From positions 62,001 to 126,000 of the IMG/VR virus record IMGVR_UViG_3300049001_000044: DNA of 64,000 nucleotides; one strand, 5' to 3'. This DNA is from a virus. Both the position numbers and the translations under genes were made by a program. The notes beneath the pieces were generated by a model, which saw only the letters and a program-made list of their open reading frames with translations, had not been told where the DNA came from and searched no databases. This document shows, one piece after another, positions 10,030-44,434 of this stretch (its first letter is position 1; each line of letters begins with the position of its first letter).

Positions 10030-11259
10030 TTAGAGTTCTATCACGTCCTCAGCTGTGGGGCCGTAGGAGAGGTACTTGACGTTGACTTCAGGGATTCGGT
10101 CAGCGATCACCTTTGACAGTTCATCAGTGAGGATGGTGATGAGCTGCCCTCCCAAGTTCACGTTCAACTTTTCACCAACTTGATCCAGGCAAGTGATCAT
10201 CAGTTGGGGTTTGTTGACATGGATACCAGTGATTTTGCTCAAGCTGTAGGATCGCTGAATATCCCTACTGATCATCAGCGACAAGGTATCCACATCCAAT
10301 GGTGCGTAGCGGAAGTGTCCTTGCCAAGGGCCAGTTACGTTCGTCTTATCTGTGGGGATTTGTGTAGACGTGATAGGGAGATTCTCCATCTTCAGAGGGC
10401 CGGCGCCGTGACGCGTGAGGTAGCACCTAGTGATGTAGACTGGGGTGATCTCGTTGTAGAACGTCTCGTACGCAGTCAAGATGCTTGATGGCAGTCCCGT
10501 GACCGAGCGAGTGACGTGAGGGAAGATTCCCAGCTGTTCATCCAACATCAAACCTTGTGCGCCTTCAATGATGAGGTCAGTGTAGGGGCGGGTGTAGTCA
10601 GCGCGAATGCTCTTCAACGGGGAGAGCATCGTTGCGTCGTGTTCGAAGTCAGGATTTTCGAACATCTGCAGGAACGGCGCAGCCTCTTCCTCGTCGACCC
10701 TGTCCTTCAACAGCTCGTATTCTTTCTTCCAGTACTCATTGAAGATATGTTGCAAGGTGCGGGACATCTGGTAGATGGAGGTCTGCTTCACCATGCCAAG
10801 CGTGATGCTGCGGCCGGCGAGGCTGCGAGTGACCGTCTCGTTGATGCCTAACCCGCAAGAACCGTGGCGCCCTTTACCACGGGACAACTCGCGAAGAGAG
10901 TTCAATGCCATGTCGTAGATGATGGTGACGCGGCATTCGGGGTGAGCAATAATCTTGTCCTCAAGATCCACACCCATCAGATTGAGCTGGTCAATCTCTT
11001 TAGTGAGGGAGTAGGGATTGAGGATGAACTGCCGAGCGAGGTAGGTGTTGGCACCAGCAAAGGTACCTGCACCAATATGACCGAAGACATGGCGTTTACC
11101 ATCCTTCGTTTCGACGGTGTGTCCTGCTTGAGCACCACCGTTTTGGCGTGCTACGAGGGAAGGTTTTCCTGCCTTACGAACGAGATAGTCCGTAGTCAGT
11201 CCCTTACCCTCATCGCCGAAGTTTGCACCAATTACTGCAAAAGCGTGATTCATCGACAT
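10030..11259 (-). CDS. purA: Adenylosuccinate synthetase-like (PurA/PurZ family)
   Basis: 409 aa, close to the 430 aa of PurA. The GTP/active-site loop FGDEGKG near residue 15 keeps the catalytic Asp, and GHT is present in NGGAQAGHTV. Family enzymes join aspartate to IMP with GTP; a phage branch (PurZ) makes diaminopurine nucleotides. The retained Asp argues for ordinary PurA chemistry, but the usual Asn before AGHT is Gln and the protein is divergent. Start ATG 11259 follows AAAGGTGG; an in-frame ATG at 11277 is upstream of that site. Confidence 0.85.
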   Translation of the reverse strand: MSMNHAFAVIGANFGDEGKGLTTDYLVRKAGKPSLVARQNGGAQAGHTVETKDGKRHVFGHIGAGTFAGANTYLARQFILNPYSLTKEIDQLNLMGVDLEDKIIAHPECRVTIIYDMALNSLRELSRGKGRHGSCGLGINETVTRSLAGRSITLGMVKQTSIYQMSRTLQHIFNEYWKKEYELLKDRVDEEEAAPFLQMFENPDFEHDATMLSPLKSIRADYTRPYTDLIIEGAQGLMLDEQLGIFPHVTRSVTGLPSSILTAYETFYNEITPVYITRCYLTRHGAGPLKMENLPITSTQIPTDKTNVTGPWQGHFRYAPLDVDTLSLMISRDIQRSYSLSKITGIHVNKPQLMITCLDQVGEKLNVNLGGQLITILTDELSKVIADRIPEVNVKYLSYGPTAEDVIEL

Positions 11260-11292
11260 CGTGTTGCCACCTTTCATCGTTTGTTGCTTTTG

Positions 11293-14216: not shown

Positions 14217-15731
14217 TTAGGCTTCCGTGTTCTGACGCATTTCGTCCAGGGTGATCTCGTTGTAGAGGTCACCGTAGTGGTAGACGATCTGGTGCAGGTC
14301 TTCCAGGGTGTGGTGCAGGTCACCTTGGTCGATACGGACAGTCTTGATCTCGTTAGTCACGGTATCGCGAACCAGAGTCAGCACACCTTCCTTCGACTTC
14401 TTGCCAGCGTCAGTGACGGGGTCCTTCGCGATGCCGACCCATTCACCATCGACCAGGATCGAAGATGCTTTCTGGGCGAACTTGTACTTGTCGCGATTGA
14501 CTTTCTGCAGCAGTGCACCACCAGAACCGAAGATGATGCAGTCAGCCGAGTAGTTCAAGCCGATGACGATGTTGCCCAGCAGGGTACGGATTGCGGAGTG
14601 ATCCACACCATCGCCTTGGATGATGCCGACGTAGCGGATCTTCTTGTGGCCGGTGCTGGTGTAGTCGAAGCCATAAGCATCTTCCTGCATCTTAAGGATT
14701 TTAGGAACGATTTCCATCATGTCGCCGCTGTCCGGGCGGAAGACCACCTTGATGCCTGATGCCTTGATCAGTTCGACGAATGGAGGAGAGCAGAGTCGAG
14801 CTGCGCAGCGGAAGACATCGCGGCCATCGATGACGAGGGAGAGGATCTTGGCACCCAGCTTCTTCGCCGATGCGATCTGGTGCTCGAGGTAGTGGATTTC
14901 GCCGGCATCGTCCAGGCCGAAGGAACATTCCACACTGTGTTCAGTGGCGTAGACGGAGAAAGCAGCCATGTCGCACTTGTAGAAGTGGTTCGCAGCCAGC
15001 ACACCTTCGATGGTATCAGAACCCATGAAGTTGATGAGGTGAGCAAAGCCACCGATTTCAGCCTGCTCCGCGCAGGTAACACCGCGGCCGCCGAAGTCGT
15101 GGTAGGCGAAGCCGATCATCGACATGTCTGCACCCGACAACTTGTAGTAGTGCTTGATTTCCTGCTTAATGTCGTAGTCATCGGTCGCGATGGTGGTGGG
15201 GTACCAGATACCGCGGAGGATGATGGTCTCGAAGTAAGCGGACATCCAGAACAGGTCTTCGTCCAGGCAGGTGACCGTGTACAGAGCGTTGCCGCCCGGA
15301 ACCTTGGTGCCTTCCTTCGCTGCACGAATGATGAGAGGAGCGTAGCCGTTGTACTTCTCCACCACTTTCTCCCAGTCCTTGCGGGAAACCAGGGAGTAGC
15401 CGAAGTGCTTCAGCGAGAACGCTTCAGCTTCGTCGATGTGGAATTTGGTGATGCGCTGGGTAAAGTAGCGCTTCAGCAGCATCTGCATACCGGCAGGAAC
15501 GATGGTCTCGTCCTTGGATACGCGGGCTTCGCCGTAGCTGGACATGCCCTTGATGCCGGGACGGTACGAGAAGGCGTGTGCACCCTTGTACGAGTCCGAA
15601 CGGAGGATGAGGGAGATGATGAGCCGATCCAGGTAGGTGTACTTCTTGTCCGTGCTGGATGGAGTGAGGTACTTGGAAATGAAGTCGAACTTCTGTACCA
15701 AGCCGATTGCGCTGCTTGCAACTTGAGTCAT
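14217..15731 (-). CDS. nadV: Nicotinamide phosphoribosyltransferase (NAMPT)
   Basis: 504 aa, full length for NAMPT. It makes NMN from nicotinamide and PRPP. Landmarks: SYGEARVSKDE early, WYPTTIATDDYDI, VFRPDSGDMMEI (substrate/PRPP-binding Arg-Asp) and FGSGGALLQKVNRDKYKFAQK. With the NMNAT-Nudix protein at 17.2-18.3 kb it gives a two-step route from nicotinamide to NAD+, the NARP2 arrangement by which phages rebuild NAD+ after defence systems deplete it. Confidence 0.95.
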   Translation of the reverse strand: MTQVASSAIGLVQKFDFISKYLTPSSTDKKYTYLDRLIISLILRSDSYKGAHAFSYRPGIKGMSSYGEARVSKDETIVPAGMQMLLKRYFTQRITKFHIDEAEAFSLKHFGYSLVSRKDWEKVVEKYNGYAPLIIRAAKEGTKVPGGNALYTVTCLDEDLFWMSAYFETIILRGIWYPTTIATDDYDIKQEIKHYYKLSGADMSMIGFAYHDFGGRGVTCAEQAEIGGFAHLINFMGSDTIEGVLAANHFYKCDMAAFSVYATEHSVECSFGLDDAGEIHYLEHQIASAKKLGAKILSLVIDGRDVFRCAARLCSPPFVELIKASGIKVVFRPDSGDMMEIVPKILKMQEDAYGFDYTSTGHKKIRYVGIIQGDGVDHSAIRTLLGNIVIGLNYSADCIIFGSGGALLQKVNRDKYKFAQKASSILVDGEWVGIAKDPVTDAGKKSKEGVLTLVRDTVTNEIKTVRIDQGDLHHTLEDLHQIVYHYGDLYNEITLDEMRQNTEA

Positions 15732-17205: not shown

Positions 17206-18339
17206 TCAGTCCTTGATCAGGCCAACCATCGTGTCGATGATGGCGTGGTGATCTTCGAACCAGTTCTGCGGATTTGCACGTGCTTCCGAGATCGGCAGCC
17301 AGAAGGCCTTCGCGGTTTCGACGATGCCTTCAACCCCGCCAGTATCTTCCAGGGGAGCGAACTGGCCAGCCACTTTCGGCAGCGGCTTGGTATCGTCGAG
17401 GCGGTACAGGAATGCGAAGGTGATGGTGCGACCACGCAGCGAACGATTTGGATCGTCGAAGTATTCGTAATCGACGATCGAACCGCGGAGGATGTCCTCG
17501 GTGATTTCCTTCGCTCGCTTGCCTTCGGCTAGTCGCAGGCCGGTTTCTTCCAGCACTTCGGTGATCGCGGCTTCTTTCACTCGCTGCTTCGGCTTGACGA
17601 AGCCACCAGGCAGGGCCCACAGACCTTTGCCAGGCAATGCGCCGCGTTCGACGACGAGGATGTGGCCAGACTGGATGATGACGGAGTCGGCGGTGACGAA
17701 GGTTGGCGCGTAAGGAGCAAATGCCCAGCGTTCCTTGTATGCCTTGATGAAGTTGTATTCATCACGCAAAACGCCGAGAGTTGGCGTGGTGATGAAGTTG
17801 CGAAGGAAGCGATCGGTTGCTTCAGGAATATCCCGCCACGTCATGTAAGCGCCAGTGAACAGGCGATCGCGGAGAGCTGTGGCGTTGAGGTCTTCGCCGA
17901 CAGGGTGTGGGTCCTTGAAGTCCTTGCCCCATTGAGGGAAGCAGCGGAGGTACCAGGTGCTGTCATCGCGCTCGGAACCGGTCACGAAGATTTCCGGGTT
18001 GTCGAAGCCGAAGTCTCGCACAGCAGCTTGGACATTCTCCTGGACCGATTGGATCCATTTCGCGTCGTTGTACGGCTGATCAGGGAGGGGACGAATTTCG
18101 TAGGAGGTTTCTGCCGTTACTTGCAGATTACCGAGCACCCAGTTCGTGATGATCTGGCGGCGTTCGATGTAGGTGAAGGGGTTCTTGATGTCTCGGGATT
18201 TGTTAGCCGAGCCGACCAGAACTACAACGCCATCGTAATTTTGGAAGGCATTGTTGAGGACGTGAACGTGTCCGTTGTGGAGGGGTTGGAATCGACCGAT
18301 GTAGACGGCCACCCGCTTGCGGGGATTAGTGTTTGCCAT
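17206..18339 (-). CDS. nadM: Bifunctional NMN adenylyltransferase / Nudix hydrolase
   Basis: 377 aa, two domains. Residues 1-180 are an [21 protein letters not shown] (HxGH-type ATP site) and later DLNATALRD (ISSTxxR-like). Residues about 215-377 are a Nudix hydrolase, with the box spread over [18 protein letters not shown] and LEETGL. This NadM-Nudix fusion is a known architecture that makes NAD+ from NMN and hydrolyses ADP-ribose. It completes the NAMPT pathway. GAGGAGCTCG precedes the start. Confidence 0.95.
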
Positions 18340-36816: not shown

Positions 36817-36850
36817 ATTTTAGCTTGCGTGCGGCACTTTAAAAACTGCA
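36817..36850 (-). promoter_or_regulatory. TGCAGTTTTTG-type promoter
   Basis: TGCAGTTTTTA, 17 nt, TAAAAT, overlapping the end of the upstream gene. Confidence 0.7.
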
Positions 36851-37179
36851 TCATCCTGGCCGGGTATGAAGCACGTTCGGAACCTAAGGGCCTTCTCATA
36901 CAGGACGTATGCGAATACCCCGCTCTCGAGATAGATCCTACCGTGCTTCGCGTCCTCGCTCACATTGGCGTCAAAGAGTAGTTGGCAGTAGTGTTGGTCA
37001 ATCCAGTCCTCGACCTCCTTGAGGAATGGAATCCCGCCAGTGCCAAATCGCTCGATAAATCTTTGAACGAAATGCTCTTCGACGAACATCTTCAGGCGAA
37101 TCTTTTCATCAGGGCACCACACCTTGTTCTTCTCATGGAAGCGGGCCCTGAACGGATTGACGACTTTTAGGTCAAGCAC
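36820..37179 (-). CDS. Hypothetical protein (119 aa)
   Basis: Start taken as GTG 37179, because GGAGAACTACT precedes it and it gives an 8-nt overlap with the kinase stop; ATG 37200 is possible. Mixed alpha/beta with MFVEEHFVQRFIERFGTGG. Last gene of the kinase/sulfotransferase group. Confidence 0.6.
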   Translation of the reverse strand: MLDLKVVNPFRARFHEKNKVWCPDEKIRLKMFVEEHFVQRFIERFGTGGIPFLKEVEDWIDQHYCQLLFDANVSEDAKHGRIYLESGVFAYVLYEKALRFRTCFIPGQDDAVFKVPHAS

Positions 37180-37588
37180 AGTAGTTCTCCAATATGACAT
37201 CGACCTCTTCATCGATCGTCAAACCTCTGCCTATCCGTATGTCGAAGTTTTCAGGAGGAACAAAGAGTTGGTTAGTATCTTCAAATCGTCCTTTTGAAAT
37301 TCGATCCACCCACACAATGAACGCGTCACCGAAAGCCACTCTGCATTCTGGCAGCGGACAGACAAAGTCGGCAACGCAGGGTGTATTAGCACGCAGAACC
37401 GTTTGGCAGAGCCAGCCCATCCTTCTTGCTTGTTCGATGCGATCCTCAACACTGAACTTGAGGTCCTTGTTGAGATTGCCGCGCACCTCATCGGCGTTCC
37501 AATGTACTGCACCAAGTCTCTTAGCCAGCTCTATTGCCAGTGCGGTCTTACCGCTACCGGGCAGTCCCATGATTAAGATTGGCTTCAT
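37172..37588 (-). CDS. APS-kinase-like P-loop kinase
   Basis: 138 aa. Walker A GLPGSGKT; WNADEVRGNLNKDLKFSVEDR closely follows the adenylylsulfate-kinase signature (D-x-D/E-x-V-R...LN-x-D-L-x-F-x-x-x-D-R). It would phosphorylate APS to PAPS. Shorter than bacterial CysC (about 200 aa). Overlaps the sulfotransferase gene by 35 nt, which supports a joint PAPS pathway. Confidence 0.75.
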   Translation of the reverse strand: MKPILIMGLPGSGKTALAIELAKRLGAVHWNADEVRGNLNKDLKFSVEDRIEQARRMGWLCQTVLRANTPCVADFVCPLPECRVAFGDAFIVWVDRISKGRFEDTNQLFVPPENFDIRIGRGLTIDEEVDVILENYCA

Positions 37589-38273
37589 CGAAAATCTCCT
37601 TCAGTTGGGTAAAGTTCATCACGAACTTGGCCTTGTCGCCGAACTCGATAGTGTTCTTTTGTAGATTGAAAGGCTTGACGGGTAAGCCCACCAATTGACA
37701 GAACTTTTGGGCGTTCGCCGCGAATAGATCCTCGACAAAAACGTGATGAGGATTGCCTAAGTCGATATTTCTATTTTGTTGATACTCTTCAATGCGATGC
37801 CTCCAATGGGCGACATCAATCAGGATTGGGTTCGCAGCGAGTGCCACCTTGTGCTCTTCCATCCTCTGCCCTGGGATGTACCAGTTGAGATGGATGCTGA
37901 TGGCTTGGCTCAGTAGTTGGTTAAAGAGGTCTCTTCGTTCAACCAAAATCACGTGATCGAACGACGCGATGGTTTCCTTCAAGAGGTCTGGGTATTTTAC
38001 CAGGCGTTCTTGGTGGATCTTCGCTACTAAGGGAGCCTCAGCTTTGCGAACTACGTCGATTCGATTTTGGAAAAATTCCCTTGACGAATGTTCAATGAAA
38101 TCGCCGTGTGTGGTGACGATCCTACCCTCATCAACAAACAGCCGAACATGCTTAACCATCCCATTGTACATGTCGGTGGGATGGTTCGACGGACCCAAGT
38201 AGTTGATGATGTTTCGACTTACGAACTTAGATCCAGTTCTGGGTAACCCGAAGATCAGAACTTTGATGTTCAT
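37554..38273 (-). CDS. PAPS-dependent sulfotransferase-like protein
   Basis: 239 aa. GLPRTGSKFVSRNI is the 5'-phosphosulfate-binding loop, and HVILVERRDLFNQLLSQ contains the 3'-phosphate-binding Arg/Ser region. The C-terminal part includes DLFAANAQKFCQLVGLP. Sulfotransferases move sulfate from PAPS to sugars, lipids or proteins. Acceptor unknown; cell-surface glycan or a virion component are options. Confidence 0.8.
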   Translation of the reverse strand: MNIKVLIFGLPRTGSKFVSRNIINYLGPSNHPTDMYNGMVKHVRLFVDEGRIVTTHGDFIEHSSREFFQNRIDVVRKAEAPLVAKIHQERLVKYPDLLKETIASFDHVILVERRDLFNQLLSQAISIHLNWYIPGQRMEEHKVALAANPILIDVAHWRHRIEEYQQNRNIDLGNPHHVFVEDLFAANAQKFCQLVGLPVKPFNLQKNTIEFGDKAKFVMNFTQLKEIFDEANLNHGTAR

Positions 38274-38578
38274 GCGTAAGTCGCTGGCTTGAAAGTCCAG
38301 AAGGCGTTGTAGGATTCGTTGTATCCTGGCTTATCATAGACGACGTGCCAGCCAGCTTCGCGGAAAACATCCTCAATGTCTAGCAGCTTGTTGTCAAAGA
38401 CTTGATTGCTGGTGAGGGACAAAGCTTCCATCACCTTCGACAGAGCCTCGTCTTGCTTGATGTGGGCAGTCCGACCATTGTAGTGCTTGGCGATCAGATC
38501 GTTGAAGACCTTGATCACCTCAGGAGGGATGGACTTGATTTGCTTTTCTTTAACTTCGTGGGGACGGATTGGTTGCAT
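38270..38578 (-). CDS. Hypothetical protein (102 aa)
   Basis: MQPIRPHEVKEKQIK; overlaps the sulfotransferase by 4 nt after AAAGGAGCTAAC. C-terminus AFWTFKPATYA. First gene of the sulfation group; not recognised. Confidence 0.65.
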   Translation of the reverse strand: MQPIRPHEVKEKQIKSIPPEVIKVFNDLIAKHYNGRTAHIKQDEALSKVMEALSLTSNQVFDNKLLDIEDVFREAGWHVVYDKPGYNESYNAFWTFKPATYA

Positions 38579-42280: not shown

Positions 42281-42860
42281 TTACTTGATCGATTGCCCAC
42301 TTTCGTTCTGTGCAGTGGAAGCAAACTCCGCATGGTGGAATGCTATCATGCTTGGGACATGAACGAGTTAAATCGAGCAAATCATTTACACCAAGCAATG
42401 AGTACAGATAGATCGTCGCGCGCTTATCGAATGTCACGAACGGTGTTGCGTACCCTCTGTACTTGTTATCCATTGCAGTCAATGGACGCATTGGCTTAGG
42501 TCCAGTGTAATCCCAGTTGATTGGATTTTGAGTCACGCCAGTGTAGAGCCAATCGACTTGCTCCATGGTTTCGTAGATGTCTCTACGAAGCAATCCATTC
42601 TCAAGAACGAACTCATGCACCCTAGATCGCAAATCCACGTTGAATTTGTTTTCAAGATAGATGAGTGTGTTATCAATCGAGGCATTCTTCAAGTCTTTTC
42701 GGTACACGACAAAAATTTTGTCAGGCACGACCCCATTTACAAGTAGGCAGTACAGAAGAATTACACTGTCTGCCCCGCCCGAATACGAGATGCCGGTCAT
42801 CCCATCATGCAGCGGGATGATCACGTTTCGATAGGGGGTCTTGTAAATGATTTCCTTCAT
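42270..42860 (-). CDS. QueC-like PP-loop ATPase
   Basis: 196 aa. PP-loop SYSGGADSVILLY at the N-terminus and a C-terminal zinc site SCPKHDSIPPCGVCFHC, TERKWA, as in 7-cyano-7-deazaguanine synthase and its relatives. Several key elements are shorter than true QueC (about 230 aa), so another ATP-dependent amide or nitrile chemistry is possible. Adjoins the subtilase by 1 nt. Confidence 0.75.
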   Translation of the reverse strand: MKEIIYKTPYRNVIIPLHDGMTGISYSGGADSVILLYCLLVNGVVPDKIFVVYRKDLKNASIDNTLIYLENKFNVDLRSRVHEFVLENGLLRRDIYETMEQVDWLYTGVTQNPINWDYTGPKPMRPLTAMDNKYRGYATPFVTFDKRATIYLYSLLGVNDLLDLTRSCPKHDSIPPCGVCFHCTERKWAIDQVKGA

Positions 42861-44434
42861 TACGACTTGATACCTTTACCTTGGACTGATTCTTGATCAA
42901 CCTCTTCTAGGAAGGTGAACGAGCTTGATGCGCTCAACTCATCTAGCATTGGTTTGATATCAGACGATACAGCATCTGGTGTCACCAAGAAGAAATAAAT
43001 CTTGGGTGAGACGAATGTAATGCCTGGACAGTGTAGAGTCACGGTGAACCACATCTGCTTAACATTCTCGCCTGGGGCTAGTTGTGTCCCTGGAGTGATT
43101 CGGATACCAACCACGCCGTCATCAGACACTACCGAGTTTTGCAAGATAGTAGCCATCTCAGCATCACCAAATTGCAGCGAGAAGACCAGGTCTTCTTTTT
43201 CAATCTGGGATAGCACGTTAACTGGCATCAGCATTTTCACGTCGACCTTCATATCAGCAGTGCCGCCGAGGGTGTTCGTACCCAGATACTGGATGTTGTT
43301 ATCTGGAAGCGAGTTAGTGTCTGGGCGATGCAGAAGACGATTTTCTGTTTGACTCACCTTATCATTCAAAATCAGCGCATTGTAGGTCGAATCGGCGATC
43401 ATGACGTCCTTCACCTCTTGCGCCATTGGGGCGATCTTGTTGATGCCGAACAGTGCCGATGCAACGCCACTTGCCAACGCGGCCGAGAAAGAAGAACCGG
43501 TGTTAAGCGTGTACTCATCTACCGCATTGAAGCCCGCAACGTCAACGTCTTTAGCTGGCGCATACAGATCAATTTTCTTGTTCACACCATAAACCTCAGC
43601 GAATTCATGATCGTCACTAGTGCTACCTGCAACGGTGAAAACACCCGCCAGACCAGCAGGAGTAACCTCGTCGATGTTTGTGAGAGTGTTACCAGCAGCC
43701 GCAACAACCATCATGCCTGCATCGATGAGTTTGGTAATTTTCGCGTTGATGTACTCGCTCGCTGGGATACGCCACGACATATTCACGACCATTGGCACAT
43801 CGAGTTTCGTCTGACGGTATTCGTAGACTTGGTCGATCAAATCACCCAGTTCACTGATGGATGGTTTGCGAGTAGCATCGCTGACCTTTACGATCTTGAG
43901 TGTTGCGTTCTTGTTGACACCGAGCGTTTTACCAGCTACGAGAGATGCAATTGCAGTGCCGTGACCCAACGTATCTTCGGTGTCAGTGAAATCGGGGAGG
44001 GTGAAGAGGTCTTCGATTTGCACGCCCTCGAACTCGACGTGGTCCTTTCTGATTCCGCTATCCATCACAATAACTTCTACCGATCGCTGCGCTTCAACAG
44101 TCGCAAGATATGGGTTGGCGACAAATGGGGCGTAGCGATTTGCGATTCGATTCTGCGCCCACCCCAGCATTTTGATTGGTGCTTCAGCAGGTTCTAGGAT
44201 TTCGCCTGCTTGAATACGACTGACGGGATCGGCAACTATTTCAGTGGTCCAGCCATCGTCGGTCTTTACATGAAACAGAATAGGCTCGCCAACAGCCACG
44301 CAGGACACAAGTCCTTCGGCTTTCAGAGCCATGTTAATCAAGCCGATCGGAATGTTTGACAGATCGGTCTCGTCAGTCTTGAGCAAGAACAGGTTAGCTT
44401 GCTCAGTAGTTGCGAAGGTTAGTTGAAGTTTCAT
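42860..44434 (-). CDS. Subtilisin-like serine protease (S8)
   Basis: 524 aa. Asp in VIVMDSGIRKDH, His in LGHGTAIASLVAG, oxyanion Asn in VAAAGNT, Ser in NTGSSFSAALASG: a full catalytic triad. About 110 N-terminal residues may be a propeptide; about 170 C-terminal residues form an extra beta domain. No secretion signal. Could process virion or host proteins. MKLQLTF does not have a capsid-targeting LxE. Confidence 0.93.
   Translation of the reverse strand: MKLQLTFATTEQANLFLLKTDETDLSNIPIGLINMALKAEGLVSCVAVGEPILFHVKTDDGWTTEIVADPVSRIQAGEILEPAEAPIKMLGWAQNRIANRYAPFVANPYLATVEAQRSVEVIVMDSGIRKDHVEFEGVQIEDLFTLPDFTDTEDTLGHGTAIASLVAGKTLGVNKNATLKIVKVSDATRKPSISELGDLIDQVYEYRQTKLDVPMVVNMSWRIPASEYINAKITKLIDAGMMVVAAAGNTLTNIDEVTPAGLAGVFTVAGSTSDDHEFAEVYGVNKKIDLYAPAKDVDVAGFNAVDEYTLNTGSSFSAALASGVASALFGINKIAPMAQEVKDVMIADSTYNALILNDKVSQTENRLLHRPDTNSLPDNNIQYLGTNTLGGTADMKVDVKMLMPVNVLSQIEKEDLVFSLQFGDAEMATILQNSVVSDDGVVGIRITPGTQLAPGENVKQMWFTVTLHCPGITFVSPKIYFFLVTPDAVSSDIKPMLDELSASSSFTFLEEVDQESVQGKGIKS

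Follow-up and report, generated by a model that had tools for sequence, protein, structure and literature searches.

Within the 64,000-nt stretch of viral DNA analysed here (hereafter the window; bases 62001-126000 of the 343,229-bp IMG/VR virus record IMGVR_UViG_3300049001_000044), a gene for an APS-kinase-like protein is overlapped by a gene for a protein with sulfotransferase-type motifs, and it seems probable to us, with due reserve, that this phage converts APS from its host to PAPS and then uses that PAPS to sulfate a target. Four elements of this reading are ones that we infer: that the kinase acts on APS, that PAPS is the donor, that the two enzymes are coupled, and what the acceptor is. 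The suggestion of the first-pass annotation that "the phage sulfates something" is favoured by the fold and acceptor motif of the kinase, by the motifs of its partner and by the recurrent pairing of such genes in other viruses, and it is weakened by the absence of most of the cap from the kinase.

Results

Layout and coding signal of the locus

The region 36820-38578 holds four overlapping ORFs on the minus strand (Table 1), which share, from the upstream end onwards, 4, 35 and 41 nt; the coordinates and the 35-nt overlap of the central pair, as first annotated, proved exact, and both of these ORFs were found on the minus strand. The start of the kinase gene is credible because it is preceded by AAGGAG and because the P-loop follows from residue 8. 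The frame of the sulfotransferase-like gene scores +0.12 bits/codon, against -0.37 and -0.49 for the other two frames of that strand, which hold 14-15 stops, and one antisense frame reaches +0.07 but contains 8 stops. That score, like those of the kinase gene (-0.01) and of the downstream gene (0.06), is low for a phage whose named genes score 0.27-0.67, and the upstream 102-aa gene has a native-like 0.51. The three low values lie in the lowest fifth, yet within the range covered by 51 other short genes, and they fit a joint recent acquisition of the three genes without being proof of it. The downstream gene has no relative in the loci of the kinase relatives.

Table 1. Features of the overlapping gene group (window coordinates) and, in the last row, of related viral loci (coordinates within each locus)
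Feature	Position	Strand	Remarks
Upstream gene of the overlap group	38270..38578	-	102 aa; no known family
Sulfotransferase-like gene	37554..38273	-	239 aa; start in 4-nt ATGA overlap with upstream gene
5'-PSB-type motif G9-LPRTGS-K16 of sulfotransferase-like protein	38226..38249	-	From sequence
3'-PB-type motif R114-DLFNQLL-S122 (R-x7-S) of sulfotransferase-like protein	37908..37934	-	From sequence
Kinase ribosome-binding site AAGGAG	37596..37601	-	Within sulfotransferase-like gene; from sequence
Overlap of sulfotransferase-like and kinase genes	37554..37588	-	35 nt
APS-kinase-like gene	37172..37588	-	138 aa; P-loop kinase lacking most of the cap
Walker A/P-loop G8-LPGSGK-T15 of kinase	37544..37567	-	From sequence; fully or almost fully conserved across 63 relatives
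Kinase acceptor-side stretch NADEVRGNLNKDLKFSVEDR, residues 31-50	37439..37498	-	Aligned to 20-residue stretch of E. coli CysC
Kinase RFEDTN, residues 101-106	37271..37288	-	Site of absent APS-kinase cap helix RDPKGLYKKARAGEL; Phe of FTGID retained
Downstream gene of the overlap group	36820..37212	-	130 aa; no known family
Two-domain sulfotransferase proteins	L052 73-1836; L023 2615-4366; L062 2603-4375		About three genes upstream of kinase

The kinase

The label "APS-kinase-like" is borne out by a match to the Pfam family APS_kinase (PF01583) at 1.9e-12 and 47.9 bits, above the cut-off of 21.1, and the protein also matches PHROG 10255 ("kinase") at 4.4e-26; the NCBIfam apsK equivalog model TIGR00455 gives 39.3 bits, short of the 138.7 needed. 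An AF2 model built from a 63-member alignment has a mean pLDDT of 95.9, and every one of the 50 Foldseek PDB matches listed for it is an APS kinase, an APS-kinase domain from a PAPS synthetase or the APS-kinase-like domain of a fungal ATP sulfurylase, with TM values of 0.75-0.89 by query length; a profile of the kinase family likewise returned solved APS kinases as its first matches. We therefore assign the APS-kinase fold with very high confidence. Matches to defence-system models were set aside as P-loop noise.

The kinase shares with CysC and with the APS-kinase domains of PAPS synthetases (PF01583) the fold, the P-loop, the Phe of FTGID and the acceptor stretch, which reads VR..L..DL.FS..DR.E..RR (DLxFSxxDRxExxRR) in common with E. 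coli CysC; it differs from them in being only 138 aa long, in having NADE where the alignment with E. coli CysC shows DGDN, and in lacking the cap helix. The cap closes over the substrates, and its segment RDPKGLYKKARAGEL, which bears two of the three named conserved cap residues (PMC13213808), is absent from the window kinase, where only the Phe of the conserved Arg, Lys and Phe is present. By fold and motif the protein looks like an APS kinase that departs from full membership in one defining feature, the cap; since most of the cap is missing, it is only by such likeness that we infer its action on APS.

The sulfotransferase-like protein

The 239-aa protein has no significant match in Pfam, PHROGs, NCBIfam or PDB sequences, none of the curated profiles PF13469, PF00685, PF03567 and PF09037 recognises it (PF13469 has no match in the whole 343-kb record), and neither do the defence-system models; close relatives were sought in IMG/VR and GTDB genomes, in phages and plasmids and in 50 viral records, and none that was usable came back. 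A single-sequence AF2 model (pLDDT 37) was not usable, and Foldseek on it was uninformative. The earlier label "sulfotransferase" accordingly has no profile behind it, and what upholds it is the presence of both PAPS-binding motifs at the proper spacing: 105 residues separate the 5'-PSB-type from the 3'-PB-type motif, compared with 100-107 for a set of twelve related sulfotransferases from phages (some of which were checked directly against Pfam), and the joint chance of both motifs, on a composition basis, is about 4e-7 per protein. An N-terminal 5'-PSB-type motif occurs in 38 of 1321 viral ORFs of at least 180 aa, these being the window protein, locus L089 with its copies, and sulfotransferase families. 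The order and overlap of the gene are, moreover, those of the Sulfotransfer_3 genes found beside kinase relatives. Judged from its motifs, the protein is very probably a sulfotransferase.

L089 was considered as a distant relative and set aside: its shuffle z of about 6 is suggestive, but unrelated ORFs score similarly, and it has no R-x7-S; the sole match of a profile made from it and the 239-aa protein, to an IMP-nucleotidase, was spurious.

Relatives of the kinase and their neighbours

The viral kinase family is large, with at least 580 confirmed IMG/VR matches in each of two overlapping scans, and neighbourhoods were compared in 181 loci representing 113 clusters at 85% identity. A sulfotransferase-type gene is present within the retrieved DNA of 34 of these clusters (in L021 only as a two-domain protein's truncated tail) and directly adjoins the kinase in 14, against 6.1 expected from permuting gene positions within the fetched loci (2000 permutations, maximum 15). 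Those 14 comprise nine clusters with clear Pfam families, three with a "GPQGSGNH" family that matches nothing in Pfam, one sub-cut-off case and the window itself. In a window-like subgroup, eight other clusters at 90% identity have a Sulfotransfer_3 gene (1e-16 to 1e-18 in Pfam where tested) that lies upstream of the kinase gene and overlaps its start, mostly by 4 or 22-25 nt. Among the 49 records reached through a kinase (L101, the 50th, came in by way of a sulfotransferase and is excluded), 22 have a Sulfotransfer_3 match at E <= 0.001. Linkage within three genes changes 18 times on the kinase tree, 5 of them on supported branches, and the linked sulfotransferases belong to several unrelated families; it is this recurrence with different families that argues for a function of the pairing.

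Kinases of the CysC-like DR type, to which the window kinase belongs, are linked to a sulfotransferase in a ratio of 14:6, versus 22:55 for the others (Fisher p 0.0013), although the tree shows no more than two changes of the motif, which was for that reason discarded as an independent marker of linkage.

What most kinase relatives have beside them, however, is not a sulfotransferase but an HxGH nucleotidyltransferase (CTP_transf_like), found within 3 kb of the kinase in 57 of the 113 clusters and fused to it in 26 of 67 clusters at 90% identity (first locus set); examples of the fused or directly adjacent arrangement are L004 7989-8822, L001 7108-7892 and L003 7995-8775. It is closer to NMN-/CTP-type nucleotidyltransferases than to ATP sulfurylase; it could in principle make APS, and nucleotidyltransferase plus kinase may in many viruses form a compact PAPS synthase or serve another two-step donor pathway. 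A DUF2061 membrane protein (1.5e-14; L142 6371-6631 and relatives) adjoins the kinase in 22 of the 113 clusters, usually overlapping it. An annotated cysteine dioxygenase lies a few kb upstream of the fused kinase in Stenotrophomonas phage Bhz60 and Clavibacter phage 33, and the fused-kinase gene of Bhz60 is itself overlapped by one with a NADAR domain (positions for these observations: L017 4187-4864 and 7559-8002 in Bhz60; L019 1124-1834 in Clavibacter phage 33).

Other genes of the phage

Elsewhere on the minus strand of the window, 10030-11277 encodes a PurZ-like protein (PHROG 1211, labelled 2-aminooxy adenylosuccinate synthetase; 3.2e-59), a gene whose presence suggests that the phage DNA may contain 2-aminoadenine. 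A nicotinamide phosphoribosyltransferase (14217-15731) and an NMNAT-NUDIX-type protein (17206-18339) constitute a two-gene NAD salvage route, the former having a 90%-identical counterpart on a 12.5-kb IMG/VR contig (L188), and 42860-44434 encodes a subtilase-family protease (Pfam S8 3.4e-18, PHROG 3677).

Discussion

The pair can be pictured as a two-gene, translationally coupled sulfation module, in which host ATP sulfurylase would supply APS, the 138-aa kinase would phosphorylate the 3'-OH of APS so that PAPS is made beside the sulfotransferase, and the 239-aa PAPS-dependent enzyme would pass the sulfuryl group to an acceptor, most likely a carbohydrate of the cell surface or of the virion. 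Neither ATP sulfurylase (PF01747) nor CysD/CysH-type proteins (PF01507) have a match in the 343-kb record, which is possibly incomplete, and no second APS kinase or other PAPS-pathway gene is seen in it; with no ATP sulfurylase in the record, APS would have to come from the host.

Phage and virome sulfotransferases are already known, with their function stated as unclear (PMC10580990; PMC12285232), examples being those of cyanophages S-SKS1 and S-SRM01 and of OM43 phages, and viral cysC is a reported auxiliary metabolic gene (PMC12766990, PMC9611531, PMC8066274). The claim that such a pathway is "undescribed" in phages consequently needs narrowing: the components have each been published singly, and it is the kinase-sulfotransferase pair of which no description was found in the open-access literature searched. 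The viral Sulfotransfer_3 (PF13469) proteins, including those of S-SKS1 and S-SRM01, resemble the window protein in motifs, spacing and size, and their environmental relatives stand, as in the window, before a kinase; however, their sequences give no significant match to the window protein, and S-SKS1 and S-SRM01 have no kinase adjacent. The homologous kinases of the PHROG 10255 phages (Stenotrophomonas phages Bhz60, Suzuki and DLP_6; Clavibacter phage 33) are 43-48% identical to the window kinase but, unlike it, occur in proteins of about 245 aa as fusions with an HxGH nucleotidyltransferase, and no sulfotransferase was seen in their vicinity. Such fusions recall the human-type PAPS synthetase and the bifunctional ATP sulfurylase/APS kinase of Aquifex in joining kinase and nucleotidyltransferase in one protein, whereas the viral nucleotidyltransferase is a CTP_transf_like domain of about 110 aa, unlike the ATP sulfurylase of PAPS synthetases, and none stands beside the window kinase.

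As for what might be sulfated, the window itself offers no evidence of the target, and a surface or virion glycan is our leading guess, to which we would give less than even credence. It is prompted by the surroundings of the relatives: CMP-KDO-synthetase-like, carbamoyltransferase, epimerase and nucleotide-sugar genes occur near kinase relatives; the S-SRM01 sulfotransferase gene is two genes from a glycosyltransferase and close to an epimerase, and that of S-SKS1 is beside a repeat protein; and some viral proteins of 580-600 aa join an N-terminal sulfotransferase to a C-terminal part that is glycosyltransferase-like (by eye; no Pfam match).

The absent cap and the replacement of DGDN by NADE would also suit a kinase that phosphorylates some other acceptor, e.g., another nucleotide compound that the HxGH nucleotidyltransferase produces, with the sulfotransferase-like enzyme either using the product or being independent, in which case surface decoration would still be likely, but not as sulfation. 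The frequency with which that nucleotidyltransferase, of CTP/NMN type rather than an ATP sulfurylase, lies beside the kinase (the 57 clusters above) or is fused to it points the same way, and there is a precedent in the Campylobacter capsule, where the MeOPN kinase Cj1415 helps make a 3'-phosphorylated CDP-phosphoramidate donor for decorating the surface polysaccharide (PMC11800397); the likeness is drawn from the description of that pathway, and the group donated is phosphoramidate, not sulfate. The window phage, however, has no such nucleotidyltransferase apart from its NMNAT-NUDIX gene, which matches weakly, sulfotransferases recur as kinase partners, and the window kinase is of the subtype that is linked to them more often (a weak argument, given the two motif changes on the tree), so that we regard another acceptor as unlikely, if to be taken seriously.

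Doubt may also be directed at the partner, which could be some other P-loop-like protein or an inactive relative that is next to the kinase by chance: profile searches were of no use, the structural model was poor, and in pairwise scores its N-terminus also resembles kinase P-loops. Yet GLPRTGSK does not fit the Walker A pattern, the two PAPS motifs stand at sulfotransferase spacing, and gene order and overlap are as in recognised pairs, which makes such an identity improbable. That the kinase merely serves sulfate assimilation, feeding PAPS to the host PAPS reductase and cysteine synthesis next to an unrelated sulfotransferase-like gene, would agree with the way in which viral cysC has been reported from viromes, as a sulfur-metabolism gene; with no PF01507 protein or ATP sulfurylase in the record, and with kinase relatives linked to sulfotransferases and glycan genes, we find it very hard to credit.

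Returning to sulfation as the preferred reading, it can be extended to a widespread, miniaturised viral supply of PAPS, in which a cap-less APS kinase, in many viruses fused to or beside a nucleotidyltransferase of about 110 aa (HxGH) in place of ATP sulfurylase, would feed many unrelated sulfotransferases of phages, and these would alter the glycans of host or virion, with the window phage representing a form of two genes that draws its APS from the host; this is a speculation that we put forward as rather doubtful. Viral cysC is usually taken as a helper of sulfate assimilation, and a recurrent kinase-sulfotransferase unit would give phage sulfotransferases and viral cysC a common and testable purpose, the local provision of PAPS for sulfation. 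The cap-less kinase would reveal if the APS-kinase fold still functions, or was repurposed, without its lid, and, should LPS, capsule or a tail fibre be what is sulfated, the module would represent a little-explored kind of phage-made surface modification, perhaps directed against competing phages.
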